This document shows positions 14,405 through 29,784 of a stretch of DNA of 64,000 nucleotides, piece after piece. Below the pieces are notes generated by a model. That model was not told where the DNA came from and searched no databases. It worked only from the letters and a program-made list of their open reading frames with translations. Origin of the DNA: Subtercola lobariae (lineage in GTDB: Bacteria; Actinomycetota; Actinomycetes; Actinomycetales; Microbacteriaceae); NCBI RefSeq assembly GCF_014640255.1, contig NZ_BMGP01000001.1:124001-188000 (forward strand), written 5' to 3'. The position numbers and the translations under genes are program-made. Within the stretch, counting starts at the first letter, position 1. Each line of letters starts with the position of its first letter.

Positions 14405-14486
14405 GGCAAGTTACCCTAGCGGCCAAAGGGATCTGACTGTAAATCAGACGGCTGAGCCTTCGGGGGTTCGAATCCCTCACTTGCCA
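14405..14486 (+). tRNA. tRNA-Tyr (GUA)
   Basis: 82 nt. Acceptor GGCAAGT/ACTTGCC, anticodon stem-loop TCTGA-CTGTAAA-TCAGA with anticodon GTA, a long class II variable arm and T-arm GGGGGTTCGAATCCCTC. No encoded CCA. The 3' half (from 14437) is the attachment site of the downstream element, and the insertion leaves the gene intact. Confidence 0.97.
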
Positions 14487-14487
14487 C
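14437..14487 (+). repeat. attL: 51-bp repeat in the 3' half of tRNA-Tyr
   Basis: The 51 bases from the anticodon loop to one base past the tRNA are identical to 29734-29784. Flanking bases differ at once on both sides (A versus T before, T versus G after), so these are the exact limits of the repeat. Confidence 0.95.
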
Positions 14488-14497
14488 TCAAGATAAA

Positions 14498-14542
14498 AGC
14501 CCTGGTCAGATGCGGTTTTCCGCAAAGACCAGGGCTCTTTTC
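14498..14542. terminator. Hairpin inside attL end, between tRNA-Tyr and int
   Basis: AGCCCTGGTC (14498-14507) pairs with GACCAGGGCT (14527-14536). CTTTT follows on the plus strand, and AAAA before the stem gives a T tract on the minus strand. It can end both tRNA and integrase transcripts. Confidence 0.75.
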
Positions 14543-14560
14543 ATTTGTTCTAGAGGTCCT

Positions 14561-15823
14561 CTATTCGGCAAATGTGTGCAGTTTGTGTGCAACTGAGGTT
14601 TTCGGGGGTAGCACAGACTCCATGGCATCCGCCGCTGCACGGTTCGCGTCCGCCAGCAAATGACTATAGAGATCACTCGTCACGGCAATCGTCGAGTGCC
14701 CCAGCCGTTTACTGACTACTGCGATGTCGACGCCGCCTGAGAGAAGCAAAGAAGCGTGCTCGTGGCGTAGATCGTGCAGGCGCATGTGCGGCAGCCCTGA
14801 CCGTTCCACGAGGGTATCGAACGTTCTCGAGATGTGCGCCGGCCGCAGCGGTCGACCGTCCTCGTAGCTGAACACGTGACCCGCGCCTTGGTAGGCGGCT
14901 GCCCACTCGGCCCGCTCGCCCTCTTGCCTGATCTGCCATGCGACCAGAGCGCCGATCGCTTCGCTTCCGAGCGACACTTTGCGATCCTGCCCCGAGTCGG
15001 TCTTGATCGCACCGTCGAGCACCGTGTGTCCAACTTGGACACGTTGCTGCCTCACCACGAGTTCCCGTTTGGTGAAGTCGACATCGGCCCAACGGAGGCC
15101 AGCCAGCTCCCCTCGACGTAGCCCGGTGAAGATCGCCAACTCGAAGACGGGTGCTAGGCGCGAGTCGGCGATTGCGTCGAGGAACGCGCGCACCTGATCC
15201 GGCTCCCAGATTCTCGTTTTCGACTTGCTTGTTGAGGGTAGTTCGATCTTCGATGCGGCGTTGAAGTCGACGAGATCAAGCCGCTCAGCGGACGATAACG
15301 CCGACGACAGGACAGCGTGTATCCGCCGCATTGTGGTGGCTCCACGACCGTCAGCACGTAGCTGTTGAACGAACTTATCGACGTGGAACTTGCGCAGCTC
15401 TGCGAGCTTCACAGCACCCAGAGCGGGCAGAATATCCTGCAGGACGTAGCGTCGATACATCAGCTCCGTTGATGGTCGCATGCCATCTCTGACACGCCTG
15501 TCGAGCCAGTCGGGCAGGTATGCGGCCATCGTAATTTTCTGGTCGCCCTTGTACCTGCCCGTGGCGATCTGGTCGATGACTTTCGCGCGTTCCTGCTGCG
15601 CCTCACGTTTCGTCGCGAAGCCCATCTTGCGCACCTGCACACGCTTACCGCTGCCAGCGCTGGTGCCCGCTGAGACCGCGAATCCCCATGAGCCGTGCTT
15701 GGAATCGCGAACAAGCGTCGGGCACGCCGCGGCCTTCTGTTTGTCGGTGGCACGATCAGGGAGCGGGCCGAAGGCCTTGCCGTCGGCCGTTCGGCACCCG
15801 CAGCGCCGGTAGATGTCACTCAT
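14561..15823 (-). CDS. int: Tyrosine recombinase (integrase)
   Basis: 420 aa phage-type integrase. N-terminal arm-binding region (about 40-90), SAM-like core-binding domain (about 95-190) and catalytic domain. Catalytic residues visible: Arg235 in TGLRRGELAGLRW, His350 and Arg353 in HDLRHEHASLLL, His376 in LGHSTI and nucleophile Tyr386 in SDLYSHLL. The ATG at 15823 has AGAGGAG 6 nt upstream; the open frame to 15880 is therefore not used. It ends about 75 bp from attL, the usual position for site-specific recombination into a tRNA gene. Confidence 0.95.
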   Translation of the reverse strand: MSDIYRRCGCRTADGKAFGPLPDRATDKQKAAACPTLVRDSKHGSWGFAVSAGTSAGSGKRVQVRKMGFATKREAQQERAKVIDQIATGRYKGDQKITMAAYLPDWLDRRVRDGMRPSTELMYRRYVLQDILPALGAVKLAELRKFHVDKFVQQLRADGRGATTMRRIHAVLSSALSSAERLDLVDFNAASKIELPSTSKSKTRIWEPDQVRAFLDAIADSRLAPVFELAIFTGLRRGELAGLRWADVDFTKRELVVRQQRVQVGHTVLDGAIKTDSGQDRKVSLGSEAIGALVAWQIRQEGERAEWAAAYQGAGHVFSYEDGRPLRPAHISRTFDTLVERSGLPHMRLHDLRHEHASLLLSGGVDIAVVSKRLGHSTIAVTSDLYSHLLADANRAAADAMESVLPPKTSVAHKLHTFAE

Positions 15824-15884
15824 GATCGCTCCTCTCGAGTTGGCAGATTTCTGACACCTCGGATGACAGCGGGTGAGCAATGTT

Positions 15885-15926
15885 GCTCAGGTGGTACACC
15901 CTGCACCACCTGAGCGGAAATTCCGC
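15885..15926. promoter_or_regulatory. Two overlapping palindromes upstream of int
   Basis: Perfect 11-bp arms GCTCAGGTGGT (15885-15895) and ACCACCTGAGC (15905-15915) with a 9-nt spacer. The perfect 13-bp palindrome GCGGAAATTCCGC (15914-15926) overlaps it by two bases. They lie between the stop of the 70-aa gene and the int start. No T tract follows, so an operator or excisionase site is more likely than a terminator. Confidence 0.55.
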
Positions 15927-15931
15927 ACGTC

Positions 15932-16353: not shown

Positions 16354-16417
16354 CACTTCACCGCCGTTCGGAGGTAATAGGCGGAGAGTTCCGGGCGGTC
16401 AACGACGACTATCGTGT

Positions 16418-16642
16418 TCATTGTTTCTGGCTCCTCGAAGAAGAACGCTCGGGCAGGTTGTCGCAGTGCCGGTCTAGATCGCGCTTGTCGTACAGAACGC
16501 GCCGCCCCGTACCTTTCGGCGTGATCTCGTTCTGCTCACGCAAAGCGTCTAGATCGCGCACAGACTTGCCGATGTAGTAGGCGGCAAGTTCGCGGCTCAT
16601 CATTCGGGGAGGAAACTCGACCCGGATGGTTGTGGCGCTCAC
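16418..16642 (-). CDS. HTH DNA-binding protein (excisionase family)
   Basis: 74 aa with MSRELAAYYIGKSVRDLDALREQNEITPKGTGRRVLYDKRDLDRHC, a winged HTH like the helix-turn-helix 17 group. The GTG start at 16642 overlaps the stop of the preceding gene (GTGA). It is the second Xis-like protein of the leftward operon; which of the two drives excision cannot be told. Confidence 0.7.
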   Translation of the reverse strand: MSATTIRVEFPPRMMSRELAAYYIGKSVRDLDALREQNEITPKGTGRRVLYDKRDLDRHCDNLPERSSSRSQKQ

Positions 16643-17046
16643 GAGTTGACTCCCTCAATGTTGAGCGAATTTAACGCATCGATCCTGGCGGCAATCCTCT
16701 CGGCATACTCATGGAACCCGGCCCACTCGTCGCTCCGCGTTCTGATGGATTCGGCATCCATGTCTTCGGCGGCATCGGTGATCCAATACGCCCCAAAAAA
16801 TCGCTGTGTCTCTGGGTGCCAGTGAATTTCGATGACCAAGTTGTTGTTGTATTGCTCATTGAAGACTCTGTGACGCCAGTTTTTTGGTTCGTCTGGGTCG
16901 ACTTCATGGCCGAAACCGTCGCAGCCGAGGGAGCGAAACGGGCAGACGGCAGCCACAGCCTCCGCTTGCTCGGCCATGGCTTCCAGAACGAGCGCTTCGC
17001 GCGCTTCGGCTTCGGCCATGATGAGGTCGTTTGTTACAGTGTTCAT
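16639..17046 (-). CDS. Hypothetical protein of the element
   Basis: 135 aa, acidic, not recognised. N-terminal helix rich in Ala and Glu (residues 8-33), then two Cys (CPFRSLGC), a WRHRVFNEQYNNNLVIEIHWHPETQRFFGAYWI segment that looks like beta strands, and a C-terminal helix. It overlaps the following HTH gene by GTGA, so it belongs to the leftward operon. No function proposed. Confidence 0.65.
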   Translation of the reverse strand: MNTVTNDLIMAEAEAREALVLEAMAEQAEAVAAVCPFRSLGCDGFGHEVDPDEPKNWRHRVFNEQYNNNLVIEIHWHPETQRFFGAYWITDAAEDMDAESIRTRSDEWAGFHEYAERIAARIDALNSLNIEGVNS

Positions 17047-17119: not shown

Positions 17120-17120
17120 C

Positions 17121-17735
17121 TCATTGGCCCGTAGGCCTGTCCTTCTCAGATGGGGAAGGAAGTTCTTGTTCACCGGCCATGCCGGGGCTGGCAGCTCCTA
17201 GTAGCCCTTCTTTTCTGGCCTCACTAACGAGGCGGCTGATGTAACCAGGCTGATAGTTGAGCCTTTGCGCGACAGCGACGATTGGCTTCGATCGAGTCGC
17301 TTCGTTCGCGAGCGCCTCGCGGTATGCCGCTACCACCCTCGGCATGAGCACGCGCCGAGGTTCTCGACTTGCGCGCTCATTCACCAGACTCTGTGTGGCA
17401 ACCTCCACACGTTCGTCACCATCGAAACGAAATGGATAACCGAACACGCCTGCGAGAGTCTGTTCGATGATGGAGGCGACAGGGATTTCGCGCAGCGTGG
17501 TCGCCGTGACCGAGGGGCCCCCACGAGATGCCTTGATCGACAACAGATCGCAGACGGGCTGGCGGTCTTCGATTCGAACGATCACCTCCAAGTCGTAGCC
17601 CTTGAATTTAGTCGTCACTTTCGCACGAGTGTGGGGCAGAAAGATGCCGTGGGCAACCTCAGCTGGTGTGTCGTCGAGAGCCTCGCCTACCATCCATGCC
17701 AGTTGATGAGCCTGCGCGGATTTTCTTGGTGCCAT
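17121..17735 (-). CDS. Probable DNA-binding regulator of the element, leaderless
   Basis: 204 aa. The N-terminal two thirds have no motif I recognise. The C-terminal part SKPIVAVAQRLNYQPGYISRLVSEARKEGLLG reads as a helix-turn-helix, of the kind found at the end of actinobacterial replication or regulatory proteins. The ATG at 17735 lies about where transcription from the promoter at 17741-17770 would start, so the mRNA is probably leaderless. It is the first gene of the leftward operon and faces the XRE gene across a short gap, the position of a lysogeny-type regulator. Confidence 0.65.
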   Translation of the reverse strand: MAPRKSAQAHQLAWMVGEALDDTPAEVAHGIFLPHTRAKVTTKFKGYDLEVIVRIEDRQPVCDLLSIKASRGGPSVTATTLREIPVASIIEQTLAGVFGYPFRFDGDERVEVATQSLVNERASREPRRVLMPRVVAAYREALANEATRSKPIVAVAQRLNYQPGYISRLVSEARKEGLLGAASPGMAGEQELPSPSEKDRPTGQ

Positions 17736-17835: not shown

Positions 17836-18075
17836 ATGAGACAAAGCCAGCTACGGATTCGACGGATCGTCGAAGCTCGCCGCCTCTTCCGCGAGGGGGA
17901 GGCCACCCGCATTCGAACTGAGGCGGGAATCAGTCAGGCCGAATTTTCGAAGGGGGTCGGAGTCAGCCCAGCGACGATCTCGCTGTGGGAGTCGGGCGGT
18001 CGAAGCCCAATCGGCGAACACGCGCTGAAGTCGTGGGCGCTCCTCATGACTCTTCAGAGAGCAGGCGAGAAATGA
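17836..18075 (+). CDS. XRE-family HTH regulator
   Basis: 79 aa. Classic Cro/CI-type HTH: RTEAGISQAEFSKGVGVSPATISLWESGGRSPIGEHALKSWALLM. I choose the ATG at 17836 because the frame upstream of it gives no domain and TACGTT at 17824-17829 could be a -10 placing the TSS at the start codon; starts at 17758 or 17812 remain possible. It faces the 204-aa gene, so together they look like a two-way switch. Its stop overlaps the next start (ATGA). Confidence 0.8.
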   Translation: MRQSQLRIRRIVEARRLFREGEATRIRTEAGISQAEFSKGVGVSPATISLWESGGRSPIGEHALKSWALLMTLQRAGEK

Positions 18076-18263
18076 CCATCGACGAGATCCGCACCAAAGC
18101 CACGATCAATCTCTGGCCCGACACAGGGGAGCTATTGAATCTCTCTAAGAATTCCGTGTATGCAGCGGCCAAAGTTGGCGAGATACCCACCTTGCGCATC
18201 GGGCAGAGGTACATCGTGCCAGTTGCGCCGCTGCTCAAACTTCTCGGGCTGGAGGAGAGCTGA
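18072..18263 (+). CDS. Small HTH protein (excisionase/AlpA-like)
   Basis: 63 aa: INLWPDTGELLNLSKNSVYAAAKVGEIPTLRIGQRYIVPVAPLLKLLGL. This is the typical helix-turn-helix 17 pattern in which G-[ED]-[IL]-P-x-[LI]-R-[IV]-G-x-R follows the recognition helix. Coupled to the XRE gene by ATGA. In actinobacterial elements such proteins often act with replication or excision functions. Confidence 0.75.
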   Translation: MTIDEIRTKATINLWPDTGELLNLSKNSVYAAAKVGEIPTLRIGQRYIVPVAPLLKLLGLEES

Positions 18264-18484
18264 TGCGAGAGGACAAAACACCGCTCTGGTACTCGGACCC
18301 GACAGGCAACACGGCGGTCAGAAATGTCATGCGTGGCGGATTCCGCCACATCCAGCCGATCCCCGACCGCGTTCTGTCTCGGCTACTCGACAAGCTCGAG
18401 TGCGACATCGAGAGATACCGCGAAAACAAGAAAGCCCTGGCATCGGTGCTGGAACATCGCCAGGGCCACGCCACCGAAGCTTAG
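18263..18484 (+). CDS. Small hypothetical protein
   Basis: 73 aa, starts with an ATG overlapping the previous stop (TGATG). Contains TPLWYSDPTGNTAVRNVMRGGF and a C-terminal helix LSRLLDKLECDIERYRENKKALASVLEH. Not recognised. It is in the rightward operon before the ATPase. Confidence 0.65.
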   Translation: MREDKTPLWYSDPTGNTAVRNVMRGGFRHIQPIPDRVLSRLLDKLECDIERYRENKKALASVLEHRQGHATEA

Positions 18485-18495
18485 GAAGCGATCTC

Positions 18496-18840
18496 TTGAA
18501 CCACACGATAGCACCACCGACCGACTTCCCCGAGTGCATCACCCTCAGTCCGAGAGGTGAGACGTTCATCGAACAGCTTGGCGTCGCACTCATTGTCGGC
18601 ACCGTAAGCACGCACCAGCTCAGCCCTGCTCTTCTGCAGTTCTGGGAATTCGGGGTTCGGCAGGGTGAGCGGAACAAGCGGCCAGAAATCGACCAGGCCA
18701 ATGCTGACGCCAACCGTTTGTACGCGCTTCACTTCAACCCGCGCACGATTCTCAAGGTTGGCCTCCCGTTCCCCGAACTCGAGAACATCCGTGAGGCGAT
18801 GTACGCAGAGGGCGGCAGCTACGGAGGGCGCGCCGCGTGA
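18496..18840 (+). CDS. Small hypothetical protein
   Basis: 114 aa from a TTG at 18496 with AGGAAG about 8 nt upstream. The same frame is open back to 18160, but only across two other genes. Sequence: PECITLSPRGETFIEQLGVALIVGTVSTHQLSPALLQFWEFGVRQGERNKRPEIDQANADANRLY, probably helical. Not recognised. Its stop overlaps the ATPase start (GTGA), which supports a real, coupled gene. Confidence 0.6.
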   Translation: MNHTIAPPTDFPECITLSPRGETFIEQLGVALIVGTVSTHQLSPALLQFWEFGVRQGERNKRPEIDQANADANRLYALHFNPRTILKVGLPFPELENIREAMYAEGGSYGGRAA

Positions 18841-19904
18841 CCGCCGAAAGCTACGAAACGTCGACCGCTGCTGACGACCAGATGCAGGCCGACTGGTTGC
18901 TGAGTCAGGGCTTCCCGTCGAACAACTCAACAGGGTTCACGCCGAGGCTTTACGCCGACGTTGGGTTGCTGCTCTCAGGAGGTGCCCCTGAACCCCCTCA
19001 GCCCACGATTGGGAACCGAACCGACGGGCTGTCGCTCATCTACCCGGCCGCGGCGAACGTCTTCTTCGGCCCACCAGAGAGCGGGAAAACGCTCGCAGCG
19101 TCGTGCGTGGCAGCAGACGAACTCTTCGCCGACGGAGCCGTACTGATCATCGACATCGACCACAACGGCGCACCCGCCACAATCGCACGATTCAGAAGCT
19201 TCGGCATCGGCGCTGACACCCTCAGCGACACCAACAAATTCAGGTACGCGGCACCCGAAGACTCCACCGAACTGCTCGCCATCATCGAAGACACCAAAAC
19301 TTGGGCACCCGCCCTCTGCGTACTCGATTCCATTGGCGAACTGCTCCCCATGTTCGGAGCCAACTCCAACGACGCCGACGACTACACCCGCGTACACCGA
19401 GCAGCGATAACACCCTTCACACTCGCCGGCACCGCCGTACTCGCCATCGACCACGAAGCGAAAGGCACCGACTCGAGAAGCTACGGCAGCAGCGGAACGG
19501 CGGCGAAAAAGCGGGCAGTAGACGGGGCCATGCTCCGCTTCACCGTAAAGGATGCCTTCGCACCAGGAAGAGGAGGAAAAGCAGCACTCACCATCGCCAA
19601 AGACCGCCACGGAGCTCTACGCGCCAACTCGCCACACGGTGAACGCGAACCACTCGCCGCCGTCTTCCAACTCATCCAAAACGGCGAAGCCACGAACTGG
19701 AAATTCTGGGCACCGAAAGCCGACGACACCACAACCGACCCAACCGTCGAATCAGACGCCGCCGAACTCGACCAACTCAACCCCAAACCCAGAAGCGTCC
19801 GAGACGTCCAAGCACGCCTCAAATGGTCACCCAGACGAGCAGCCCCAGCACTCGCAATATGGCGCGAAAAGCGTTACCCGACCACCAACGGTGTTACCCG
19901 ATGA
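18837..19904 (+). CDS. RecA/RepA-like ATPase, probable replication protein
   Basis: 355 aa. P-loop ATPase of the RepA/AAA_25 type: Walker A FGPPESGKT (about residue 80), a RecA-like strand VLIIDIDHNG, Walker B ALCVLDSIGEL (about 160), and AVLAIDHEAKGTDSRSYGSSGTAAKKRAVDG, the loop region of RepA-like hexameric helicases. The C-terminal end (RSVRDVQARLKWSPRRAAPALAIWREKRY) looks like a winged helix. The GTG start overlaps the upstream stop. A cluster of GTTACC repeats begins within its last 32 bases and runs beyond it, which makes an initiator or helicase role at an adjacent origin likely. Confidence 0.75.
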   Translation: MTAESYETSTAADDQMQADWLLSQGFPSNNSTGFTPRLYADVGLLLSGGAPEPPQPTIGNRTDGLSLIYPAAANVFFGPPESGKTLAASCVAADELFADGAVLIIDIDHNGAPATIARFRSFGIGADTLSDTNKFRYAAPEDSTELLAIIEDTKTWAPALCVLDSIGELLPMFGANSNDADDYTRVHRAAITPFTLAGTAVLAIDHEAKGTDSRSYGSSGTAAKKRAVDGAMLRFTVKDAFAPGRGGKAALTIAKDRHGALRANSPHGEREPLAAVFQLIQNGEATNWKFWAPKADDTTTDPTVESDAAELDQLNPKPRSVRDVQARLKWSPRRAAPALAIWREKRYPTTNGVTR

Positions 19905-20037
19905 AAAGCGTTACCCGCACCACCCCTGAAACGGCTCAACTTCCGCCAAAACAAAGGCCAACCCTGTTACCCGGTAACGCTCGGGAAACGGGTAACCAGC
20001 GTCTGTTACCTGTTACCCCCTCCTTTAGGAGGGTAAC
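19873..20037. repeat. GTTACC repeat cluster, candidate iteron origin
   Basis: Copies of GTTACC: direct at 19873, 19893, 19910, 19966, 20005 and 20012; inverted (GGTAAC) ending at 19978, 19996 and 20037. Most extend to GTTACCCG or GTTACCC. The copy at 19966 forms the perfect palindrome GTTACCCGGTAAC (19966-19978), and the last pair flanks a CCTCC-TTTA-GGAGG hairpin. Nine copies in 165 bp right after a Rep-like ATPase is the layout of an origin. The AT content is low, so the unwinding region is not evident. Confidence 0.65.
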
Positions 20038-20171: not shown

Positions 20172-20362
20172 ACACCAAAACGAGTCGTGGGCGGTCTGTC
20201 TGCGTCGGTCTCGCGAGAACGGCACACACCCCGCGCACGAACCTGCTGGAGAATTTCCCCACTGAACTGCACACACGGCGCACACACACGCTGAAGTTCC
20301 CAGTGTTCGCAACGGTTCTGGGCTGGGCATCTGACTCCGAGTCAATTGCGGAGGTGTTGTGA
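20168..20362 (+). CDS. Small hypothetical protein
   Basis: 64 aa from the ATG at 20168, with GAGGAG 9 nt upstream. Basic and Thr/Arg-rich at the start, hydrophobic near the end (TLKFPVFATVLGWASDSESIAEVL). Not recognised. Coupled at both ends: ATGA with the 32-aa gene and TGATG with the TerS-like gene. Confidence 0.5.
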   Translation: MNTKTSRGRSVCVGLARTAHTPRTNLLENFPTELHTRRTHTLKFPVFATVLGWASDSESIAEVL

Positions 20363-20880
20363 TGGATGCACCAGAAGGTTGGGTTCCTGAGTTCAAGGGT
20401 CAACGGCCACCATTCCAACCAGGTAACCAAGTTGCGCTCGGCAATCGTGGCACTGTCATTCACGGCAGCCGCAGCGAACGCCACGTAGAGCCGATAGCGA
20501 GGCAGATAGCTAAGGATCTCCGAGCCACCGCGGGCCTGGACTATCTGAGCACGCCACGCTTCGCTGGCCCGCTGATGGACTACTGCCGCGCTGAAGCTCG
20601 CGCCCGCCTGCTCGAGGTGTGGATGCAAGACATGAGCATGGAGAAGCAAGCCGGCGCTGGCCGTGTCGGAGATCCACCGCTCGAGATGCTACGCCAGGCC
20701 GAAGTACGTGCACGCGGGTTAGCCATCCGCATCGGCCTCTACCCAGACGTGCCTGAGGATGTGCAGGAGCAGATAGCAGCCGCACGTAAGACGCTGGCCA
20801 AGAGGGCTGACGCTAAGCAGCTACAGGCGAACCTTCGCGAGTCGATCGCGGCCGACTGGGATCGGCGGCGACAATCATGA
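20362..20880 (+). CDS. Probable phage terminase small subunit (TerS-like)
   Basis: 172 aa from the ATG at 20362 (GGAGG 7 nt upstream). The pattern FQPGNQVALGNRGTVIHGSRSERHVEPIARQIAKDL, a helical ARAEARARLLEVWM segment, a glycine-containing linker, LRQAEVRARGLAIRIGLYPDVPEDV and a basic C-terminal helix is that of small terminase-like proteins in actinophages. TerS recognises the DNA to be packaged. No large subunit is present, as in PICI satellites, which use TerS to redirect the helper's terminase. Family membership is by overall pattern, not by a strict motif. Confidence 0.6.
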   Translation: MDAPEGWVPEFKGQRPPFQPGNQVALGNRGTVIHGSRSERHVEPIARQIAKDLRATAGLDYLSTPRFAGPLMDYCRAEARARLLEVWMQDMSMEKQAGAGRVGDPPLEMLRQAEVRARGLAIRIGLYPDVPEDVQEQIAAARKTLAKRADAKQLQANLRESIAADWDRRRQS

Positions 20881-20973: not shown

Positions 20974-21492
20974 CTAGCGGAGTTGGTTTCGCGTTTGGCC
21001 TTGGGCTTCTCGGCGTTGCTGCCAGCGTCCGGGCTGCTTATGCAGTTTCGGAAGCCGGTAAGGCTTCCAGTCCTCGCGAGCCCCTCCCGGAATTTCCGCC
21101 CGGGTCGCACGTGGTCGAGTTGATCGATTGCTCTGATCCACCCACCTTATTTCGACCGTGGCGTAGGCCGGCGGTGCGTCGTCGGGAATGGACAGTGTGA
21201 ACGCCACCGTCTCGGATCGACTGTCGAAGACGTTCGGCATATTCGGCGGGCGCGGCATTTTGGCGGCATCTGACCCGGTTATTTCCATAACAGGTTCGAA
21301 CATCACGAGCGAACCCATCGCCCTGACCCGCACCTGGATTTCGTGCATTCCATTGACCGATTGGGCTGCGATGACGAGAACAAATTTCACTTGCCGGGGC
21401 GGCGCTGACCACCAGCGGTACCAGATCTCAAGGATGACGCCGAGTGCGGCGATGACGGAGGTTACGAGGATTACTACATCCCACCAATGCAT
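20974..21492 (-). CDS. Membrane-anchored hypothetical protein
   Basis: 172 aa on the opposite strand to its neighbours. One N-terminal membrane segment (WDVVILVTSVIAALGVILEIWYRWW, residues about 4-28), then a domain with KFVLVIAAQSVNGMHEIQVRVRAMG and TVAFTLSIPDDAPPAYATVEIRWVDQ, probably beta-rich, and a very basic tail. Not recognised. Its isolated, reversed position within an otherwise rightward operon is typical of a cargo gene with its own promoter. Confidence 0.6.
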   Translation of the reverse strand: MHWWDVVILVTSVIAALGVILEIWYRWWSAPPRQVKFVLVIAAQSVNGMHEIQVRVRAMGSLVMFEPVMEITGSDAAKMPRPPNMPNVFDSRSETVAFTLSIPDDAPPAYATVEIRWVDQSNRSTRPRATRAEIPGGAREDWKPYRLPKLHKQPGRWQQRREAQGQTRNQLR

Positions 21493-21516
21493 GTCTCTCA
21501 GCGTAGGGGCTGTGAC

Positions 21517-22580: not shown

Positions 22581-22918
22581 TGACGGTGCAGCGGGATGAT
22601 GCGTGGTGCAAGACGGCTACCCCTGAGCAGCGGGTTGCCGCTCGTAAGGCTGGTGAGCTTGACGACTACCTTGGGGCGACGAGGTACCGGGCTGATGCGG
22701 CGGAGTCTGTGAGGGTGGCGACGGTGAAGGATCGCCTGACGGCCGAGTTTTACGGAATGTCACTTCCCCAGGCGCGGGCACAGGTTGATTCGACGGTGTT
22801 CGCGTCGTTGCGGGCGGATATGCCGGCGGCGAAGTTGGCGCTTTTGGATTGGGTGGGTAAGAGCACAAACGAAGAGGTCGCGGCGCAAGAGGACGCGATT
22901 CGAGAGGCGGTTCAGTGA
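22580..22918 (+). CDS. Small protein upstream of the tape measure gene (possible tail chaperone)
   Basis: 112 aa, acidic and helical (ATPEQRVAARKAGELDDYLGATRYRADAAESVRVATVKDRLTAEFYGM). Position and size fit a tail assembly chaperone, which in siphophages lies just before the tape measure gene. I see no clear slippery heptamer and it ends with a normal TGATG coupling, so the usual frameshift fusion is not evident. The role is inferred from position only. Confidence 0.5.
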   Translation: MTVQRDDAWCKTATPEQRVAARKAGELDDYLGATRYRADAAESVRVATVKDRLTAEFYGMSLPQARAQVDSTVFASLRADMPAAKLALLDWVGKSTNEEVAAQEDAIREAVQ

Positions 22919-23214
22919 TGACGAATTGGCCGCCCCCCGAGCTTCGTTCTGCGGCACGGTTTTTTGAGGCTGTGATGGTTGAACAAATCGCTTCTCCGAA
23001 CGCTCGGACGTTGGCTGCGTCGATTCAGGCGCATGTGAACGGCACGGATGATCCTGTGCTCGAGCTGCACGCGCTGGCGACGTTCGCGATCGGTTCGTTC
23101 TCGGCGACGATGGTCGATATTTACGGCCAGGAGCAGGCTCTCGCGACGGCGCAGCAGCAGTTGTTGTCTCATGACGTTGATGCGGTGTTTGGTGACATGA
23201 AAGTGGGGTTGTGA
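22918..23214 (+). CDS. Second small protein upstream of the tape measure gene
   Basis: 98 aa from the ATG at 22918 (a GTG at 22915 is in frame). Helical: PPELRSAARFFEAVMVEQIASPNARTLAASIQAHVNGTDDPVLELHALATFAIGSFSATMVDIYGQEQALATAQQQLL. It could be the second chaperone of the pair. Overlaps both neighbours by TGATG. Confidence 0.5.
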   Translation: MTNWPPPELRSAARFFEAVMVEQIASPNARTLAASIQAHVNGTDDPVLELHALATFAIGSFSATMVDIYGQEQALATAQQQLLSHDVDAVFGDMKVGL

Positions 23215-25598
23215 TGTCGACCGAAGAGGGCAGCATTGTCGCGAAGATCAAAGCTGACCCGTCCGATATTCTCGCGAAATTCGATGAGGTTGAGGCGAGA
23301 GCGAAAGAACTCGGCGCGGTCGACCCGAAGATCAAGGTCGACGCTGAGGTAAGCGAAGCTCTCACCGCGATCGAGACCGTGAAAGCGGCCGAGAAAAGCC
23401 TCGGCGGCACGACAACCTCCACCATCCGTATCAACACGGAGACCACGGGCGGCGGTGACTCATCTAAGACGGACGCTGAGTCGGCTGCGGAGGCCCGTTT
23501 GGCGGCGGCGTTGACTTCGGCTGAGTCGGCTGCTGCGAGGGCGTCTATCGCGCAGATGCGTCTTGACGAATTACGCAGCAGCGGCGCGGACTCGGGCGCA
23601 CGTCTCGCCGCCGCTGAACTCGCAGTCACCGAAACACAGAACAGGTCAGCGGCCGCCGCAGCGAAAGCCGTAGCAGCCACGGAGGCGCTTACTGCCGCGC
23701 AGCAGGAAGCGGGCGTATCGGCTGTCGAAGAGGCTGCCGCGCAAGATGCCGCGTCAGTGTCGACGACAGCTTTGGGGGATGCCGCGGCAAGCTCAGGCCC
23801 GCAGATCGCTCTGATGGCCAGTGCGGTCGTGGCTGTCATCTCGCTGGCTGGCCCTGCGGTCGCCGCTACAGCCGGTATCGCGGGTGGTCTCGCTGGTATG
23901 GGCGCTGCGGGTGTCCTCGCGGTGGTGGGTATCAAGAATGCGATGGATGACGGTACTGCGACTGGTGAAGTGTATTCGTCCGGTTTGCAGGAGCTGAAGG
24001 GCGATCTCGACGGGCTTGCCTCGACGGCGGCGACGGGAGCGCTGGGGGCTTTCAAGAAGATCGAGGATGACATCAATTCGGCGATGCCGACCTTGAACTC
24101 TGAGGTGTCACGGTTCACGGGTTTGCTCGGTGACGGTTTATCTTCCGTGGTCGATGGCACTGTGAACGGTTTGCAGGTCATGAACCCGCTGTTCATCGAG
24201 GGTGCGCAGGTTGTCGACAAGATGGCTGCCGGTTTCGACGAGTGGACAAAGGACGGCGGTCTGCAGAAGTTCGTCGATTACGCCACCACGGAACTGCCTC
24301 CCGTGGTGCAGACGATTCAGGATGCGGCGACGGCCGTAATCGACGTGGTGACCGCTCTGAAGCCTCTGGGTGATGTTCTGGTTCAGAGCATGGATTCGGA
24401 GGGCACCGTCGCCAGGGGGCTTTCGGTTGACCTGGCCATACTCTCGGGTGCCCACAAGGTGGCGGCAGTATCGACGGACGGTCTCGCCGATTCGCAGAAG
24501 CTCGGTATCCAGCAAGTCACCGCAGCATCATTGGCGGCGGATGCGCTCACGGGAACCCTGGGCCTGACCGCTGACGCGTACAAGAACCTGACCACCCAGC
24601 AGAGCGCGGCATCGGATGCGGCGAAGGCGTACAAGGCCGAAATGGATCTGATCAACGGGGTCGCCCAAACCACGGAACAGATCGCCGAGAAGACCGCGGG
24701 TGATTTCCAGACGATGGCTGACACCATCAACACGAACCGCAAGACCATGGACAACGCGACGGTCACCAGCCTGGACATCAACACGGCCACCGGGTTGGCG
24801 AATCATCAGATGATCACCCAGCAGATCCAAGACGCTGAGTCGTCTGCAGCGAACGTGGTCTCGTCTGAGGTTGCTAAGAGCATCGCGACGGTGAAAGCGA
24901 ATCAGGACGGCCAGGCGGCTCTGATGGCGTCGAAGCAGGCGATCGAAGATGACCTCACCGCTCTCGGGTTCGATACCGCCGCGGTTGATGCGTTCGTGGA
25001 CTCGCAGTTGAAAATCAAGCCTGAAGTGAACACGGTCACAAACGTCATCGATAACGCCTCCGCGACCGTCGCGGCCCTCGCCGCTGAGTACGCCAACCTG
25101 CCCCGCAGCATCACCACTGTGATGACCGAAGAGCATTTCGTGGAGACTAATGCACCCTCGGGTTCCCTCAATTCCAGTTCATCCTCTGCGGCGAAACAGC
25201 AGGCAGCAGCGATAGCGAACGACGCGAATGGCGGCACGATTGTCTCTCACTTCGCTGACGGCGGCCAAGCAGGAACGGTGTGGGGTCGAGGTTCGGCGAA
25301 GTCCGATTCGGTGCCCGCGATGTTGTCGGTTGGCGAAGAGGTAACGAAGGAACCGTACGCAACCCAGTTCCGACCCGAGCTGAAGATGATGAACGCTGGC
25401 GTCGACCCCTACAAGGTTGCGCAGGCGTCGGCTCAGCCGGCACAGCAGGCACCAGGCGACCGACCTATCTACATGGACGGCTCCCTGTTTGGGATGCTGC
25501 GGGAAATGGCGAACGGTGAAGCACGCATCGTCGTCAACCAGGCAGCCAAGTCGAGGCAGATCGGTTTGTCGACTGGTCAGCAGAAAGCTGCGTTCTGA
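23214..25598 (+). CDS. Phage tail tape measure protein
   Basis: 794 aa from the ATG at 23214, overlapping the previous stop. The N-terminal about 180 residues are Ala/Glu-rich coiled coil; a hydrophobic region follows (about 200-245, LMASAVVAVISLAGPAVAATAGIAGGLAGMGAAGVLAVVGI). The middle (PTLNSEVSRFTGLLGDGLSSVVDGTVNGL...FIEGAQVVDKMAAGFDEWT) and the C-terminal block FADGGQAGTVWGRGSAKSDSVPAMLSVGEEV are hallmarks of actinophage tape measure proteins. The family sets siphophage tail length at roughly 0.15 nm per residue, so about 120 nm here. No tail tube, distal tail or baseplate gene follows. Confidence 0.9.
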   Translation: MSTEEGSIVAKIKADPSDILAKFDEVEARAKELGAVDPKIKVDAEVSEALTAIETVKAAEKSLGGTTTSTIRINTETTGGGDSSKTDAESAAEARLAAALTSAESAAARASIAQMRLDELRSSGADSGARLAAAELAVTETQNRSAAAAAKAVAATEALTAAQQEAGVSAVEEAAAQDAASVSTTALGDAAASSGPQIALMASAVVAVISLAGPAVAATAGIAGGLAGMGAAGVLAVVGIKNAMDDGTATGEVYSSGLQELKGDLDGLASTAATGALGAFKKIEDDINSAMPTLNSEVSRFTGLLGDGLSSVVDGTVNGLQVMNPLFIEGAQVVDKMAAGFDEWTKDGGLQKFVDYATTELPPVVQTIQDAATAVIDVVTALKPLGDVLVQSMDSEGTVARGLSVDLAILSGAHKVAAVSTDGLADSQKLGIQQVTAASLAADALTGTLGLTADAYKNLTTQQSAASDAAKAYKAEMDLINGVAQTTEQIAEKTAGDFQTMADTINTNRKTMDNATVTSLDINTATGLANHQMITQQIQDAESSAANVVSSEVAKSIATVKANQDGQAALMASKQAIEDDLTALGFDTAAVDAFVDSQLKIKPEVNTVTNVIDNASATVAALAAEYANLPRSITTVMTEEHFVETNAPSGSLNSSSSSAAKQQAAAIANDANGGTIVSHFADGGQAGTVWGRGSAKSDSVPAMLSVGEEVTKEPYATQFRPELKMMNAGVDPYKVAQASAQPAQQAPGDRPIYMDGSLFGMLREMANGEARIVVNQAAKSRQIGLSTGQQKAAF

Positions 25599-25748: not shown

Positions 25749-26534
25749 ATGGTGGCTGGGAACGGGCTTAGTCGGGTGCCCTCGTTCGCTCATCCGCCTG
25801 TCACTGAGGCAGTCGTTTCCGTCGAATTCGCCCCGGTCGCGGCGATAGGATTCCTGTTTCTTGGAGCTTTCAACCAACAGATTCAAGCCGAATTCCCGCG
25901 CCACGAAGAGATGATCTTCGTCCCGCAAACGTCTACCTTTGCCGGATTTCAGCCGATTCAGCCCGTAGTTCGGCTGCGGATGATCACGGAAGATCAGTCA
26001 TCAGTCGCGCAATTGCAGAACGACCGATTGACTCTCAATTGGCGTCAAGCGCCGAACGGTCGCGAGTACCCGCATTACGCAGTGCACGTGGCCAAGCATC
26101 GTGAGTTGTTCGATCGGCTCGGGTCATCTGTCGCTGGGCTTGGCGACGAAGAGGTAATCCCGTTGATAGCCGAGAGCACTTATGTCAACCGGATTGAATT
26201 CGACGCCGGCGAGCAAGCACACGAATACTTTTCGCTTCTGACTGACGGTGAAGCTCTTCCTGGCGCGCATGTGGCAACGCATTTTCAGACGATTAGGGCG
26301 GTCTCTTCCGAAGATTCCCGTTTTGGTGGGCATTTGACGATTACGGCCGAGCCCTTTGCGGAGCCGAATGCGGTCGGCGTTATATTGACGGTGGTCACGC
26401 GCATCGCGCTTGACAGCGCGGATAGTCTGGACGCAACTTACGATGGCCTAGCTTTTGCGCATGAGACAAGCGTCGTTGCATTTGCGGCAGCTACCACATC
26501 TGAGATGCACTCTAGGTGGGGAATGGAAATCTGA
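25749..26534 (+). CDS. TIGR04255 family protein
   Basis: 261 aa. SFAHPPVTEAVVSVEFAP near the start, RMITEDQSSVAQLQNDRLTLNWR, a Tyr-rich YPHYAVHVAKHRELFDRL and the C-terminal AFAHETSVVAFAAATTSEMHSRWGMEI match the pattern of the TIGR04255 family, whose function is not known to me. First of three coupled genes (TGATG to the next). TAGAGT at 25737-25742 lies 6 nt before the ATG, so the transcript may be leaderless. Base composition is lower in GC than the phage-like genes, which suggests a separately acquired cargo unit. Confidence 0.7.
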   Translation: MVAGNGLSRVPSFAHPPVTEAVVSVEFAPVAAIGFLFLGAFNQQIQAEFPRHEEMIFVPQTSTFAGFQPIQPVVRLRMITEDQSSVAQLQNDRLTLNWRQAPNGREYPHYAVHVAKHRELFDRLGSSVAGLGDEEVIPLIAESTYVNRIEFDAGEQAHEYFSLLTDGEALPGAHVATHFQTIRAVSSEDSRFGGHLTITAEPFAEPNAVGVILTVVTRIALDSADSLDATYDGLAFAHETSVVAFAAATTSEMHSRWGMEI

Positions 26535-27127
26535 TGACTGCGATAACGGGCGACACTTTGATAGGAAGATCGCATGTTGAGTCGCGGTGGGACTTCGCGC
26601 AGGCTTTTGGTAACGCGCTTCCAGCGACACTTCTCTTTACTGGGTTTCGCGAGGGCACGTCGAATGCTCTATTGACTAGCTCCGTTCGTGTGCTCGTCTA
26701 TCGTCGCGGCAGGTACGTGAGTAAGCAAGAACACCTCGAACGCAGCCTGAACCGGCTTGTCGAGATCATTGCCGCGTCGAATCCAGTGGGTCGGAATGTA
26801 GTGATGGAGACGTATCAGGCGGTCGAGGCAATGGTTTTCGATAATTCGCCGACACCCAAGATTGCATACGTGGGCGGTGGCGCGTTGGAGATCGAGTGGC
26901 TCGTCGGCGGTCGTTCCTTGACTATTTCATGCTCACCAGAAGAGGGCATTGAGGCGTGGGCGACAGATGCTAACGGAGACCTTCTGTTTGAAGGCGAACC
27001 GCTTCCTATTGAGCGCTTCCTTTCTAGCACCTGGAAGAACCAGGGCCTAAAGCTGCTTAAGAGCATGAGCAGAGAGCTTAGGAACCAATCTTTTGACGTG
27101 CCCTTAGTCAGCATTCTTGCCGACTAA
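26534..27127 (+). CDS. Hypothetical protein, second gene of the TIGR04255 operon
   Basis: 197 aa from the ATG at 26534, overlapping the previous stop. Not recognised. Mixed alpha/beta: SVRVLVYRRGRYVSKQEHLERSLNRLVEII, KIAYVGGGALEIEWLVGGRSLTISCSPEEGIEAWATDANGDLLFEGEPLP. The EIEW...LTIS pattern looks like a beta sheet. It probably works with the TIGR04255 protein, since the two are translationally coupled. Confidence 0.65.
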   Translation: MTAITGDTLIGRSHVESRWDFAQAFGNALPATLLFTGFREGTSNALLTSSVRVLVYRRGRYVSKQEHLERSLNRLVEIIAASNPVGRNVVMETYQAVEAMVFDNSPTPKIAYVGGGALEIEWLVGGRSLTISCSPEEGIEAWATDANGDLLFEGEPLPIERFLSSTWKNQGLKLLKSMSRELRNQSFDVPLVSILAD

Positions 27128-27137
27128 GGCGACGTCG

Positions 27138-27605
27138 ATGGGAGCGCTCGGGGAACAGGAAGTCCTCATACGACGCTTTAACCCGTCTGATGAGAGTCAT
27201 TGCATCACTGATGAGATGAATCCTGCACTGACGCGCTTACGGTCGGGTGCCCTCGTTTTCGATTCAGATGACGCTGGCGAAGTCGGTTGTTCCGCCTTCC
27301 AAGTCTCACGACTCAACGCTGCAACGATTCCCTGTTCAGAGGTCACGGACGAGATTCGCACTGCTCTGGCGATGGCCAGCGCCTTCGAAGTGCGCGAGGT
27401 CGAGCATCAAGAGGAGCATCCGTTCGAGGCTGTCGAAGACTATTGGCCGCCCGCTGGTGCCGGACAAGGCCCCCGAATTGATGTCGCACATGTGTTGGTT
27501 CAGGAGGTGATTAGCTTCGGTACTAGTGCTACACGGAAGGCTCGAAGCAAGCTGGCTCAGAAGTTCATCGCTGTTCCAGAAGATTTGGACTTGGCGGCTC
27601 TTTAG
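27138..27605 (+). CDS. Hypothetical protein, third gene of the TIGR04255 operon
   Basis: 155 aa from the ATG at 27138 (AAGG 8 nt upstream; a TTG at 27117 is also in frame). Features: LIRRFNPSDESHCITDEMNPALTRLRSGALVFDSDDAGEVGCSAFQVSRL, EHPFEAVEDYWPPAGAG and a basic C-terminal helix. Not recognised. The E-H-P-F and W-P-P motifs may form a small beta domain. Same strand and 10 nt spacing make it the end of the operon. Confidence 0.6.
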   Translation: MGALGEQEVLIRRFNPSDESHCITDEMNPALTRLRSGALVFDSDDAGEVGCSAFQVSRLNAATIPCSEVTDEIRTALAMASAFEVREVEHQEEHPFEAVEDYWPPAGAGQGPRIDVAHVLVQEVISFGTSATRKARSKLAQKFIAVPEDLDLAAL

Positions 27606-27613
27606 GATCTGGG

Positions 27614-27889
27614 CTACATGTATCCTGGCCTGTTCTCGTACATCCCGAAATGCGACGGCACATTAGTCACGGGTGTGTCGTAGAGCACGGAGTCATTCGC
27701 GGCTTCGAGGGTGCGGTACCGGCCCAACAGTTTGCGTCGAGTCGGATCATGATCGAACGAAACGACTCTGAAGTGTTCGGTAGGTTCACCCGGGTCGATG
27801 CGACGTATCAAGGCCTTCGGGTAGCGCGGGTTATTCCGCACGATCACCCATTCGTGCCACCCGATACGGATAGGCCCGTCACCGACCAT
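27614..27889 (-). CDS. Small hypothetical protein
   Basis: 91 aa, ATG at 27889 with GAGAGGG upstream. GWHEWVIVRNNPRYPKALIRRI...EHFRVVSFDHDPTRRKLLGRYRTLEAANDSVLYDTP reads as a compact alpha/beta protein, like several small actinobacterial proteins of unknown role. It is convergent with the TIGR04255 operon. Confidence 0.6.
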   Translation of the reverse strand: MVGDGPIRIGWHEWVIVRNNPRYPKALIRRIDPGEPTEHFRVVSFDHDPTRRKLLGRYRTLEAANDSVLYDTPVTNVPSHFGMYENRPGYM

Positions 27890-28116
27890 CTGCGCCCTCT
27901 CAAGAGCGTTCCGGCCAACGTGGGTTCAACAATAGACACGGGGCACGACAATGCGCCACAATTGGAGGATAGCTCAACTAGTTGCTCACCTCGCCGGTGG
28001 TCCTTTCGACTGCTTCGCCGATTCCGGCGACCCGGCACGCGGACTTGTGGGGCGGGCGTGAGTGATTCAGCTTTTTTGCATCGGCGTGTCGCCCCGGAGA
28101 GGTGAATGATCGAAAT

Positions 28117-28266
28117 ATGAAAGCAGAAATCAAGTGTCCAACTTGTAAGCGGAGCGGCTTTGTACGTGAGGTCGATCATTTCGTTCCTCAGGACCCGAAC
28201 CACGCGATCGACTACATGTGCTTCAACCCCGACTGCGCCCGCAACGAGAGCTTCCGGATCACCTAG
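28117..28266 (+). CDS. Zinc-ribbon microprotein
   Basis: 49 aa. Two CxxC-type knuckles: CPTC at residues 7-10 and CFNPDC at 35-40, so probably a single zinc ribbon. AGAGGTGA lies 11 nt before the ATG. The stop codon directly abuts that of the convergent gene, with no base between. Confidence 0.6.
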   Translation: MKAEIKCPTCKRSGFVREVDHFVPQDPNHAIDYMCFNPDCARNESFRIT

Positions 28267-29577
28267 CTACGATCCAGAGGTGGTCTTGAAGAGCTTCGTG
28301 AGAGAGTCCAGCAATGATCCAACTGCCGTCACGTTGACTGTCTCGTCCTTGGCGTCAACGTTTTGGATGGAGTAGCCCTGACCGAATACGCTCTCAACGA
28401 TTGCTAGCTGAACTCGGTCGACTTCTGTCCGATCCGCAACCGTCGACAAAAATGGGCCGATCGTGCGCATTTCTAGCTCCATGCGCTTTGCTTTGGTTGC
28501 CTCGCGAAAGAAGTCAGCGCCAAGTTTGATGGCTACGGTCGCGGCAGTGACAAATAGTGCGCCGATCGATAGTCGAATAGCGACTTCTTGCCATTCTGAC
28601 GAGCTGATCTCGTGTGGGATTCCGAAGGCGGAAAGAACCAGCGGTATCGCACCGAGTAGTAATGCTGCCACGCCACCTATATACAGGCGGATTCCATAAC
28701 TACGCCCGCTATCCGCCTCCTTCTTATAGTGACCGGCGAGCTTGTCGGCAGCTGAGGCCGACGCTAAAGCTTTGAACTCGCCCTCCGTTTTCTCTAACTC
28801 TGTAAGCCGTTCCTGGGCGATGGTGAGTTTTGATCCGATTTCGTTGAGTAGAGGATCGAACCGTTCATCGAACTTCACACGAGCCTCGGCGACCCACGCC
28901 TCCCACGCATCGTCGTCCTTTTTCCTGAGTTCACTCGTGGTGGCTTCTGCTCGATCGACAGCCGAGTCGACGCGGGCTGCTTGATTGACTAGCTGTCCCT
29001 CGAGCGTGACTGCTCTCGCCGTGGTGCTACTCAATTCAGCAATTGCTTCATCTTTGACCCGCGTTGTCTCTTCGATGAACTCATCGATTTCTTCGCGCAG
29101 GTGCCCATGAGAGATGCCGAGGGAAGCGATCGAAAGTCGTTGCGCTTCGAGAAGATCTTCGAATATGGTCTGCTCCCGTTCAGCCTCTGCCGGCGCAGCA
29201 AATAGGCGGGGCCACGGAGCGAGAGTCAGGAGAGCTAATTCTGCGCTCGCGGCAGCAGCGGCAACCTCTGCGCCGGCATCCGGATTGATGGCTGATCTGC
29301 TTGTCAGATGATCGACAACACCCTGCCATGCGGCTTGCGTGTCAATGAGCATTCGAGCGGTGAACATCGTCGAATTTCGGGCACGCTGTTTGTGAAAGCT
29401 CCACAGATGCGCCTGAATGATCGAGACAACTTCGAGGGATGCCACGTCGCTCGGGTCGCCTTCGTCGAGAATCTCGGACACCAATCGCCCGGATTCGCGA
29501 AGTAGCTCCCAGAGTGGGTGATTTTCGAAATCAGAGCGCAGCAATGTTCTCCCCCTTGAAGTGATTCTTGTGACCAT
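28267..29577 (-). CDS. Coiled-coil protein with two membrane segments
   Basis: 436 aa, not recognised. N-terminal helical region (1-150), a long coiled coil (about 150-290), two hydrophobic segments (about 300-325 IRLYIGGVAALLLGAIPLVLSAFGI and 340-362 IRLSIGALFVTAATVAIKLGA), then a cytosolic C-terminal part (about 365-436). GAGG 7 nt before the ATG at 29577 supports that start; a TTG at 29544 with AAGGGGGAG upstream is an alternative. It is the last gene before attR, the usual cargo position, and the coiled-coil/two-TM layout is seen among membrane-acting defence proteins, but no family is assigned. Confidence 0.7.
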   Translation of the reverse strand: MVTRITSRGRTLLRSDFENHPLWELLRESGRLVSEILDEGDPSDVASLEVVSIIQAHLWSFHKQRARNSTMFTARMLIDTQAAWQGVVDHLTSRSAINPDAGAEVAAAAASAELALLTLAPWPRLFAAPAEAEREQTIFEDLLEAQRLSIASLGISHGHLREEIDEFIEETTRVKDEAIAELSSTTARAVTLEGQLVNQAARVDSAVDRAEATTSELRKKDDDAWEAWVAEARVKFDERFDPLLNEIGSKLTIAQERLTELEKTEGEFKALASASAADKLAGHYKKEADSGRSYGIRLYIGGVAALLLGAIPLVLSAFGIPHEISSSEWQEVAIRLSIGALFVTAATVAIKLGADFFREATKAKRMELEMRTIGPFLSTVADRTEVDRVQLAIVESVFGQGYSIQNVDAKDETVNVTAVGSLLDSLTKLFKTTSGS

Positions 29578-29733
29578 AGCGCAGCCTCGCTAGCGTGTGT
29601 GCGTTTGTGTGTGCAAACTGCCCGGGAACAGGTGGGAACTGAAGGTAGCTGGTCGCGTCGAGAGCGTGAAATACGCGCGGTATTGCGGGCTAGAGACGAA
29701 TCAAAGTGACTAGCTGAGACCCGTGCCAGTTCT

Positions 29734-29784
29734 CTGTAAATCAGACGGCTGAGCCTTCGGGGGTTCGAATCCCTCACTTGCCAC
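29734..29784 (+). repeat. attR: 51-bp copy of the tRNA-Tyr 3' half
   Basis: Identical over 51 bases to 14437-14487. It carries only the anticodon-loop-to-3'-end half of the tRNA, so it is not a second tRNA gene. Confidence 0.95.

Follow-up and report, generated by a model that had tools for sequence, protein, structure and literature searches.

A candidate phage satellite with its own tape measure gene at a tRNA-Tyr locus of Subtercola lobariae, and its relatives in actinobacteria

The element at the tRNA-Tyr gene

In the genome of Subtercola lobariae, a stretch of 64,000 nucleotides (contig NZ_BMGP01000001.1, positions 124,001 to 188,000), referred to below as the window, contains an integrated element of 15,348 bp, located at window positions 14437-29784 and flanked by perfect 51-bp direct repeats. 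The element encodes a tyrosine integrase, a pair of divergent regulators, a Rep-like ATPase, a TerS-like small terminase and a tape measure protein (TMP). A sequence-only reading of this DNA had proposed a satellite of an actinophage, an interpretation that is supported by a backbone of genes shared with relatives at several tRNA genes and found neither in the prophages compared nor in the TMP loci of IMG/VR. The features of the element are collected in Table 1; loci and genomes used for comparison are designated by L and G numbers.

The boundaries of the element are well defined. As had been claimed, the repeats lie at tRNA-Tyr, the left copy being the 3' end of the gene, and the 51-bp core occurs at two positions only when the 4.09-Mb genome is searched with 201 bases around the left copy. 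The GC content is approximately 0.55-0.63 within the element, 0.65-0.74 in the left flank and 0.62-0.66 in the right flank. The joined flanks were searched in ten genomes of the same genus, three of which were resolved in detail, and the empty site for which the earlier reading had called was found in one of them (G395), where the tRNA-Tyr gene directly continues into the homologue of the right flank with no element. The same site in G347 is occupied by a different element of 14.1 kb between identical 51-bp cores, encoding an integrase, a match to the window gene g21948 (E 6e-10) and a TMP of 1,035 residues that fits known TMP models (TIGR01760 E 4e-54, phrog_1533 E 8e-93), and in G373 the tRNA gene and the right flank are separated by approximately 2.2 kb of other DNA.

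The integrase has 79% identity with its counterpart at the tRNA-Tyr gene of G114 (locus L028). Two small helix-turn-helix (HTH) proteins correspond to the Xis-like proteins described earlier, and a divergent switch is likewise present, in which a leftward gene faces an XRE-type repressor gene; the leftward product (17121-17735) shows short matches in L022 (E 0.001), L024 (4e-6) and L074 (0.003), and no Pfam or PHROG family was matched by it. The gene g18160, the true start of which is probably internal, belongs to a profile that matches upstream of Rep or helicase genes in several elements, and the Rep ATPase itself is 46-59% identical to open reading frames (ORFs) of L028-L032 and L074. The repeat cluster adjoining Rep was confirmed, with six of the seven GTTACCYG sites of the window lying within 19873-20012 (1.3 sites are expected by chance in the whole window) and nine of the 23 GTTACC sites within 19873-20037. 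The TerS-like protein, matched by no Pfam or PHROG family, is homologous to ORFs immediately upstream of TerL in L023, L024, L197 and L198.

This arrangement reproduces the order of integrase, divergent regulator pair, rep with origin, and terS known from phage-inducible chromosomal islands (PICIs), as the sequence-only reading had stated; the likeness is one of gene order and does not establish the element as a PICI. The element provides its own integration, regulation and replication without a full set of virion genes, which is the general mark of a satellite. The translational coupling that had been ascribed to all of its genes applies to g18160 with Rep and to the series hth21487, g21948, g22580, g22915 and TMP, and is interrupted by two stretches without a convincing gene, approximately 450 bp with the iterons after Rep and 600 bp after TerS. 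What had been called a tail module consists, in the window copy, of the TMP only.

Profiles and tblastn agreed with the earlier observation that the element lacks genes for TerL, portal, capsid, protease, tail tube, baseplate and lysis. No Pfam match to these functions was obtained among 20 ORFs of the window, and no PHROG match among 18, with the exception of the scaffold-like g22580. Thirteen head and tail proteins gave no tblastn match to the element at E 1e-3, in a search that recovered eight of the 13 when L072 served as control prophage; TerL of L024 and of L198, detected by profiles, escaped it, so that tblastn rules out close head relatives only; the head and tail profiles built here derive from one group of phages. 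Conjugation genes were found in neither the Pfam nor the PHROG scan of the element.

Table 1. Features of the element and its attachment site (window positions)
Feature	Position	Strand	Basis
tRNA-Tyr (GTA), attachment site, intact	14405..14487	+	ARAGORN, Rfam
attL core, 51 bp	14437..14487	.	perfect direct repeat; 3' part of tRNA-Tyr
Tyrosine integrase	14561..15823	-	PF00589 E 1e-25, phrog_1 E 8e-74
Xis-like small HTH protein	16418..16642	-	phrog_25900 7e-5, phrog_66 3e-4
Protein without family, overlaps Xis-like gene	16639..17046	-	ORF, codon-position GC
Regulator candidate of divergent switch	17121..17735	-	short matches in relatives
XRE/Cro-type repressor, ORF open from 17758	17836..18075	+	PF01381 3e-9
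g18160, small protein upstream of Rep	18160..18840	+	profile match
Rep-like AAA ATPase	18837..19904	+	weak families: AAA_25 E 0.002, phrog_97 E 1e-7
Iteron cluster, candidate replication origin	19873..20012	.	GTTACCYG sites
TerS-like small terminase, start 20359/20362	20362..20880	+	homology to ORFs adjoining TerL
hth21487, HTH protein (Xis/regulator-like), satellite core gene 1	21487..21951	+	PF12728 6e-10
g21948, long helical hairpin, satellite core gene 2	21948..22580	+	locus distribution, AlphaFold
g22580, putative scaffold mimic, satellite core gene 3; motif residues 13-32	22580..22918	+	phrog_2592, family profile
g22915, all-helical protein adjoining TMP upstream	22915..23214	+	AlphaFold pLDDT 70
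TMP, 794 aa, start 23211/23214	23214..25598	+	56% identity to L078 TMP
Cargo, TIGR04255 family protein	25749..26534	+	NCBIfam 1e-13
Cargo without family	26534..27127	+	ORF
Cargo without family	27117..27605	+	ORF
Cargo, coiled-coil-like, hydrophobic stretches (by eye)	28267..29577	-	ORF
attR core, 51 bp	29734..29784	.	perfect direct repeat; identical core bounds a different element in G347

Two of the small proteins were modelled and compared by fold. The AlphaFold model of g21948 shows a block of high confidence (pLDDT 88-96) at residues 11-80 and values below 50 from residue 145 on; its fold search returned nothing at E 0.001, the best matches being ESCRT-III chains at E 0.05, and that of g22915 returned no match at E 0.001. 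The region 25749-28105, in which the TIGR04255 gene and two others follow the TMP gene, has a GC content below that of most of the element and lies where satellites may carry cargo. A search for defence cargo with PADLOC gave no convincing match, and the product of 28267-29577 shows only weak DivIVA-repeat and JetC matches.

A family of headless elements and the kinship of its tape measure proteins

To characterise the relatives, the ORFs of 14 headless loci that bear a TMP or are otherwise related (two of them, L087 and L028, share genome G114 and may be one element) were compared all against all with those of eight prophage loci. The TMP is present in 13 of the 14 satellite loci and in all eight prophages, whereas g21948 (10/14), hth21487 (8/14) and g22580 (6/14) are confined to the satellite loci. 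Six clusters, including portal, minor head, scaffold candidate, connector and major tail, show the reverse distribution, being present in every prophage and in no satellite, and TerL occurs in one satellite locus as against all eight prophages. Profiles derived from these clusters divided further loci in the same way. None of the 44 TMP loci from IMG/VR, many of them on short contigs, was matched by the core profiles; head or tail-tube families were found in 42 of these and neither kind in L143 and L153.

The g21948 query matched 15 of 398 genomes of the bacterial family, including two weak matches (G165, G077) that were set aside because the 20 kb fetched for each held none of the related genes. 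Within the stretches fetched for the other 13 loci, a TMP is present in 10, TerL in one (G295), and a recognisable portal or capsid gene in none, although this survey is not wholly independent of the TMP, since the g21948 profile was built on loci first found through it. At the level of the bacterial order, g21948 was detected in eight of 396 genomes, including that of the window, and four of the other seven (all except G485, G715 and G731) were fetched. L197, from another bacterial family, shows nearly the gene order of the window at tRNA-Tyr with a 52-bp repeat, namely integrase, Rep, TerS, TerL, HTH protein, g21948, two g22580-like ORFs, a neck protein and TMP. L198, likewise from another family and with the gene order of the window, carries TerS, TerL and TMP at tRNA-Pro with a 44-bp repeat; L200, at tRNA-Asn with a 29-bp repeat, has a match to the TMP (E 4e-11) together with an ORF resembling a chaperone, and L199 is a form of 7.4 kb without TMP at tRNA-Lys with a 45-bp repeat.

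Direct repeats were identified in seven of 14 tests at the family level (L029 and L118 being one locus), measuring 51 bp in the window element, 55 bp in L024, 52 bp in L070, 26 bp in L073, 53 bp in L113, 22 bp in L111 and 43 bp in L115/L094. TerS of the window type is kept in the window element, L022/L089, L024, L091, L094, L197 and L198. The window element itself combines the core genes hth21487, g21948 and g22580 beside a TMP, between attachment (att) repeats and without recognised head genes. Capsid and portal genes in close relatives, which would have spoken for a deleted prophage, were recognised in none, TerL alone being present in L024, L197 and L198. A PHROG scan of 68 ORFs from five elements (66 of 108 listed plus two) shows 25 of its 44 families, so that a single weak head match could still lie among the others. 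A description of this family could not be found in the literature, and no report of TMP-bearing satellites in actinobacteria was found in a search that reached few subscription papers and no preprints.

The TMP of the window was identified through L078, a prophage of G373 in the same genus, whose TMP is its nearest relative found and aligns with it over 758 columns at 56% identity (794 versus 800 residues; 51% over 836 columns by blastp). In L078 the genes for TerL, portal, minor head, connector, major tail and chaperone precede the TMP gene, which is followed by downstream tail genes, and its TMP matches phrog_9228 (tail length tape measure, E 0.001). With a profile of five TMPs, matches at E 0.001 were obtained in 76 of the 398 genomes of Microbacteriaceae, many of them weak.

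A tree of 54 TMP rows (13 satellite and 41 labelled phage) was computed by a quick search with SH-aLRT support, omitting rows shorter than 500 residues (among them contig-edge pieces of G114 and fragments in G120 and G385), loci present twice, and 10 phage rows that were short or nearly identical to others; L143 is labelled phage although neither gene kind is present there, and L083 and L084 were so labelled from tail-tube and connector genes alone. The satellite TMPs are scattered among those of phages, with at least 11 label changes forced by the starred branches against a mean of 11.8 for shuffled labels, and are thus no more clustered than expected by chance; a tree that unites all satellite TMPs in one clade is rejected (p-AU 3e-8). 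In the tree, L078 is the partner of the window TMP and L023 that of the L073 TMP, all from the genus of the window; the L070 TMP pairs with L090 (Leifsonia, support 87), and the L024 TMP groups with phages among which L075 is from the genus of L024 itself. For six of nine eligible satellites, the nearest of the 11 prophages whose genus is known comes from the satellite's own host genus (p 0.00035; 20,000 permutations), the exceptions being L085, L113 and L091. The genus of L090 and L091 (g55) was assigned by name, G304 of g55 being named Leifsonia. The test gave 4/5 (p 0.005) when these two were left out, 6/9 (p 0.002) when the partial loci L083 and L084 were, and 4/5 (p 0.014), the weakest variant, when all four were.

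The ratio of nonsynonymous to synonymous substitution rates (dN/dS) in pairs of satellite and phage TMPs is 0.22 for the window, 0.28, 0.17, 0.26, 0.19 and 0.21 in five further pairs and 0.59 for L024 with L131, compared with 0.17 in one control pair of phages; each value is a quotient of separately computed rates, and dS is near saturation in several pairs. In the measured pairs, selection on the TMP is purifying. The satellite TMPs are kin of phage TMPs over almost their whole length and have been exchanged with them repeatedly. In five of seven pairs, the satellite TMP differs in length from its phage counterpart by no more than 30 residues. Across 36 pairs of nine satellites, which are not independent of one another, the identities of g21948 and TMP correlate with a Spearman coefficient of 0.33 (p 0.05).

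A scaffold-like motif and variable tail parts

A second protein likely to be involved in hijacking, g22580, had gone unnoticed in the sequence-only reading, which is amended here in this respect. Its match to phrog_2592, a head scaffolding protein (E 0.006), covers only the last residues, 184-206 of 209. The corresponding prophage cluster, pro11, sits between the minor head gene and the presumed coat protein gene, which was assigned from its place and size, and the scaffold candidate of L078 takes its name from this position together with the PHROG match of g22580. The pro11 proteins of one phage group end in the motif MTPEQI..A...G.L..LLG, and the other pro11 proteins end differently. The C-terminal end of the scaffold binds the coat protein in other phages.

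The C-terminal 30 residues of seven of the phage pro11 proteins with this motif were made into a profile and run against 14,044 ORFs, which include loci fetched repeatedly (L022/L089/L092 and L074/L094/L115). After the phage scaffold candidates, the first matches are members of the g22580 family, from L197 (1e-11 and 6e-9), L111 (4e-6, two copies), L071 (4e-5), L074/L094/L115 (1e-4, two copies), L022/L089/L092 (0.055), L073 (0.096) and L091 (0.42); one phage protein, L160 (0.093), ranks among them, and the best match to a reversed sequence has an E value of 4.7. Alignment of the g22580 family with the phage scaffold C-terminus by hhalign gave 96% (E 3e-9) when the L197 proteins were included and 87% (E 4e-6) when they were left out. 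On these profile and hhalign matches, the g22580 family carries, as a free protein, the C-terminal motif of the presumed scaffold. As controls, 17 other prophage protein ends were used, and their best satellite matches, at 0.0045 (L071) and 0.012 (L200), are chaperone ends matching chaperone-like ORFs, followed by a scaffold N-terminus matching an L092 ORF at 0.03. A PDB search with the phage scaffold profile returned nothing. In L111, an element at tRNA-Leu with no recognised TMP, a g22580 protein (9845-10135) contains two scaffold-like motifs. The possibility that g22915 or g22580 is a tail assembly chaperone was also considered and set aside, as profile comparison with 11 phage chaperones and one satellite chaperone gave nothing; for g22915 this comparison is weak, because its profile has three rows.

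Other parts of the tail vary among the relatives. Upstream of its TMP, L071 encodes both a tail assembly chaperone (phrog_3860 E 5e-8) and a protein of the neck (phrog_5 E 7e-8). In L070, an element at tRNA-Tyr, a pectate-lyase-like protein (6513-8159, PF12708 E 2e-8) of a type presumably typical of tailspikes is encoded directly upstream of the TMP. In L022/L089, one protein belongs with minor tail proteins (phrog_1885 E 2e-15) and another with the Peptidase_S74 family (PF13884 E 4e-8), and L094 encodes a PKD-domain protein of 442 residues (E 2e-6). Chaperone, neck, tailspike-like, minor tail, S74 and PKD genes of these kinds are absent from the window copy.

Interpretation, alternatives and known satellites

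It is considered probable that the element is a satellite whose own TerS packages its DNA, whose scaffold mimic alters the helper capsid and whose own TMP builds chimeric tails. The course of such a cycle, including excision, induction, the identity of the helper, capsid redirection and entry of the TMP into particles, we infer from the genes. The element would integrate at tRNA-Tyr through its tyrosine integrase and be kept silent by the divergent regulators. It would replicate from the iterons beside the Rep ATPase once a siphophage helper, perhaps of the L078/L023 type, is active, and this helper would come from outside, because only a weak TMP match is present elsewhere in the genome. TerS would direct element DNA to the helper TerL, g22580, possibly with g21948, would alter or capture capsid assembly, most likely towards smaller heads, and the TMP of the element would replace that of the helper, giving chimeric tails of nearly equal length (794 versus 800 residues). 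Somewhat better than an even chance is given to the broader proposal that satellites of this family, widespread in actinobacteria, remake the helper virion in both its halves, redirecting the head by a free mimic of the coat-binding scaffold tail and replacing part of the tail by an exchangeable TMP, repeatedly re-acquired from local phages, and in some members by receptor-binding genes as well. If this is true, the TMP acts as a key matching satellite to helper, and the choice of tail is a modular trait under selection. The family would offer a natural comparison of kindred satellite and phage TMPs and of elements with and without chaperone, neck or tailspike-like genes, by which the question of why a satellite replaces the tape measure becomes directly testable. 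If g22580 binds the coat protein, a new route of capsid redirection by the scaffold tail alone would be indicated.

Several observations weigh against this interpretation. The window TMP received no name from Pfam, PHROGs or NCBIfam and had no tblastn match in the phage collection at E 1e-5, and the single TMP match elsewhere in the genome is weak (E 8e-4), with no resident helper seen. A TMP was not recognised in three of the 13 g21948 loci (G191, G097, G221) or in L199, and an att repeat was not found in seven of the 14 repeat tests. A second integrase lies between the TMP and the distal repeat in L024 (17792-18811) and L073 (18042-19484), which may therefore be composite or tandem. No tail assembly chaperone was recognised in the window, including by comparison of shallow g22915 and g22580 profiles with 12 chaperones. 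The scaffold function of pro11 is deduced from gene position; the window g22580 alone matches the pro11-end profile only weakly (E 0.67), and its link to the scaffold runs through family members and the PHROG match at E 0.006. A stricter pattern built from the satellite motif was found in six of nine satellite proteins and in none of 27 phage proteins, and the pro11-end profile was made after this pattern had failed on the phage proteins. The Rep protein alone is no marker of satellites, because in L184 it adjoins a minor-head-like gene.

A prophage decaying after the loss of its head, lysis and most tail genes would explain why the TMP and TerS have phage relatives, why TerL, neck or chaperone genes are kept in some relatives, and why G120 and G385 contain TMP fragments. 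This explanation is nevertheless regarded as very improbable, since a similar reduced set of genes that includes the TMP is met again at the tRNA genes for Tyr, Pro, Ser and Asn, bounded by exact att repeats, in no fewer than three bacterial families, the core genes are absent from the eight prophages compared, and the TMP is open, under purifying selection in the pairs measured and many times exchanged. Still less credence is given to an integrative element moved by conjugation or passive transduction, in which TMP and TerS are relics; packaging is predicted from the genes, which leaves room for it, but no conjugation gene was seen in the Pfam and PHROG scans, the TerS type is retained in the window element and six relatives, and the TMP is under selection. 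An unlikely reading, though not as unlikely as these, is that the satellite TMP is a decoy that poisons helper tails as a defence and is not built into satellite particles. PMC11364771 and PMC10884400 describe tail assembly as a target of satellite and prophage defences, and the tendency of the TMP to match phages of the same host genus is what an inhibitor would require. The TMP is, however, of full length and mostly close to phage TMPs in size, and the extra tail genes in L071 (chaperone, neck), L070 (tailspike-like) and L022/L089 (minor tail, S74) fit construction better than poisoning.

For the tail gene, the PLE satellites of Vibrio cholerae are the nearest functional precedent. To our knowledge, classical PICIs carry no TMP. 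According to PMC12987554, the TMP of PLE11 is 20% identical to that of the lytic, contractile-tailed helper ICP1 and gives shorter tails, the chimeric tail has been demonstrated, and all PLEs carry a tail assembly chaperone. Like the PLEs described there (PLE11, PLE1, PLE4), the window element is an integrated satellite that encodes its own TMP and has no capsid of its own, and in its family, which belongs to another phylum, capsid genes are likewise not recognised. The likeness is drawn from descriptions, and the chimeric tail of the window element is proposed from its genes. The TMP of this element, unlike that of PLE11, has 56% identity to its counterpart in a prophage whose genes follow a siphovirus-like order; unlike in the PLEs, no tail assembly chaperone was recognised in the window copy and a putative scaffold mimic is present.

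With PICIs and their staphylococcal members (SaPIs), as treated in PMC10690885 and PMC11364771, the element shares gene order and size, and capsid redirection is proposed for it; the latter source also reports inhibition of tail assembly by PICIs. Capsid-forming PICIs (cf-PICIs) and the Streptomyces satellites MulchRoom and MiniFlayer, which carry capsid genes, resemble the window family in supplying part of the particle themselves (PMC10690885). They encode their own capsid and packaging genes, whereas the window family supplies tail and scaffold-like parts, and the set of capsid, portal, protease and terminase genes that characterises cf-PICIs is not found in the window element; putative tmp genes are reported in some cf-PICIs in a figure legend of PMC12987554 (Extended Data Fig. 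10). The Pseudomonas satellite AH14b, from a host in another phylum, is similarly satellite-like, without structural head genes and with a single tail-related gene, which in the available part of PMC4936722 is named tail assembly protein I, with no TMP reported there.

The Rep family of the window also occurs in IMG/VR contigs that resemble capsid-forming satellites, among them L178, with TerL, portal and capsid by PHROGs, and L183, with TerL and portal; this kinship fits a satellite backbone. Further Rep-family contigs, L177 and L180-L182, are satellite-like by gene sizes or weak TerL matches. On L179 (IMG/VR 2788500312, 686-12044), no head gene was found with the profiles used; it encodes an integrase, a Rep of the window family and a TMP of 1,438 residues which, unlike that of the window, fits PHROG models (phrog_9228 E 6e-126), and perhaps represents a second type of TMP-bearing satellite.

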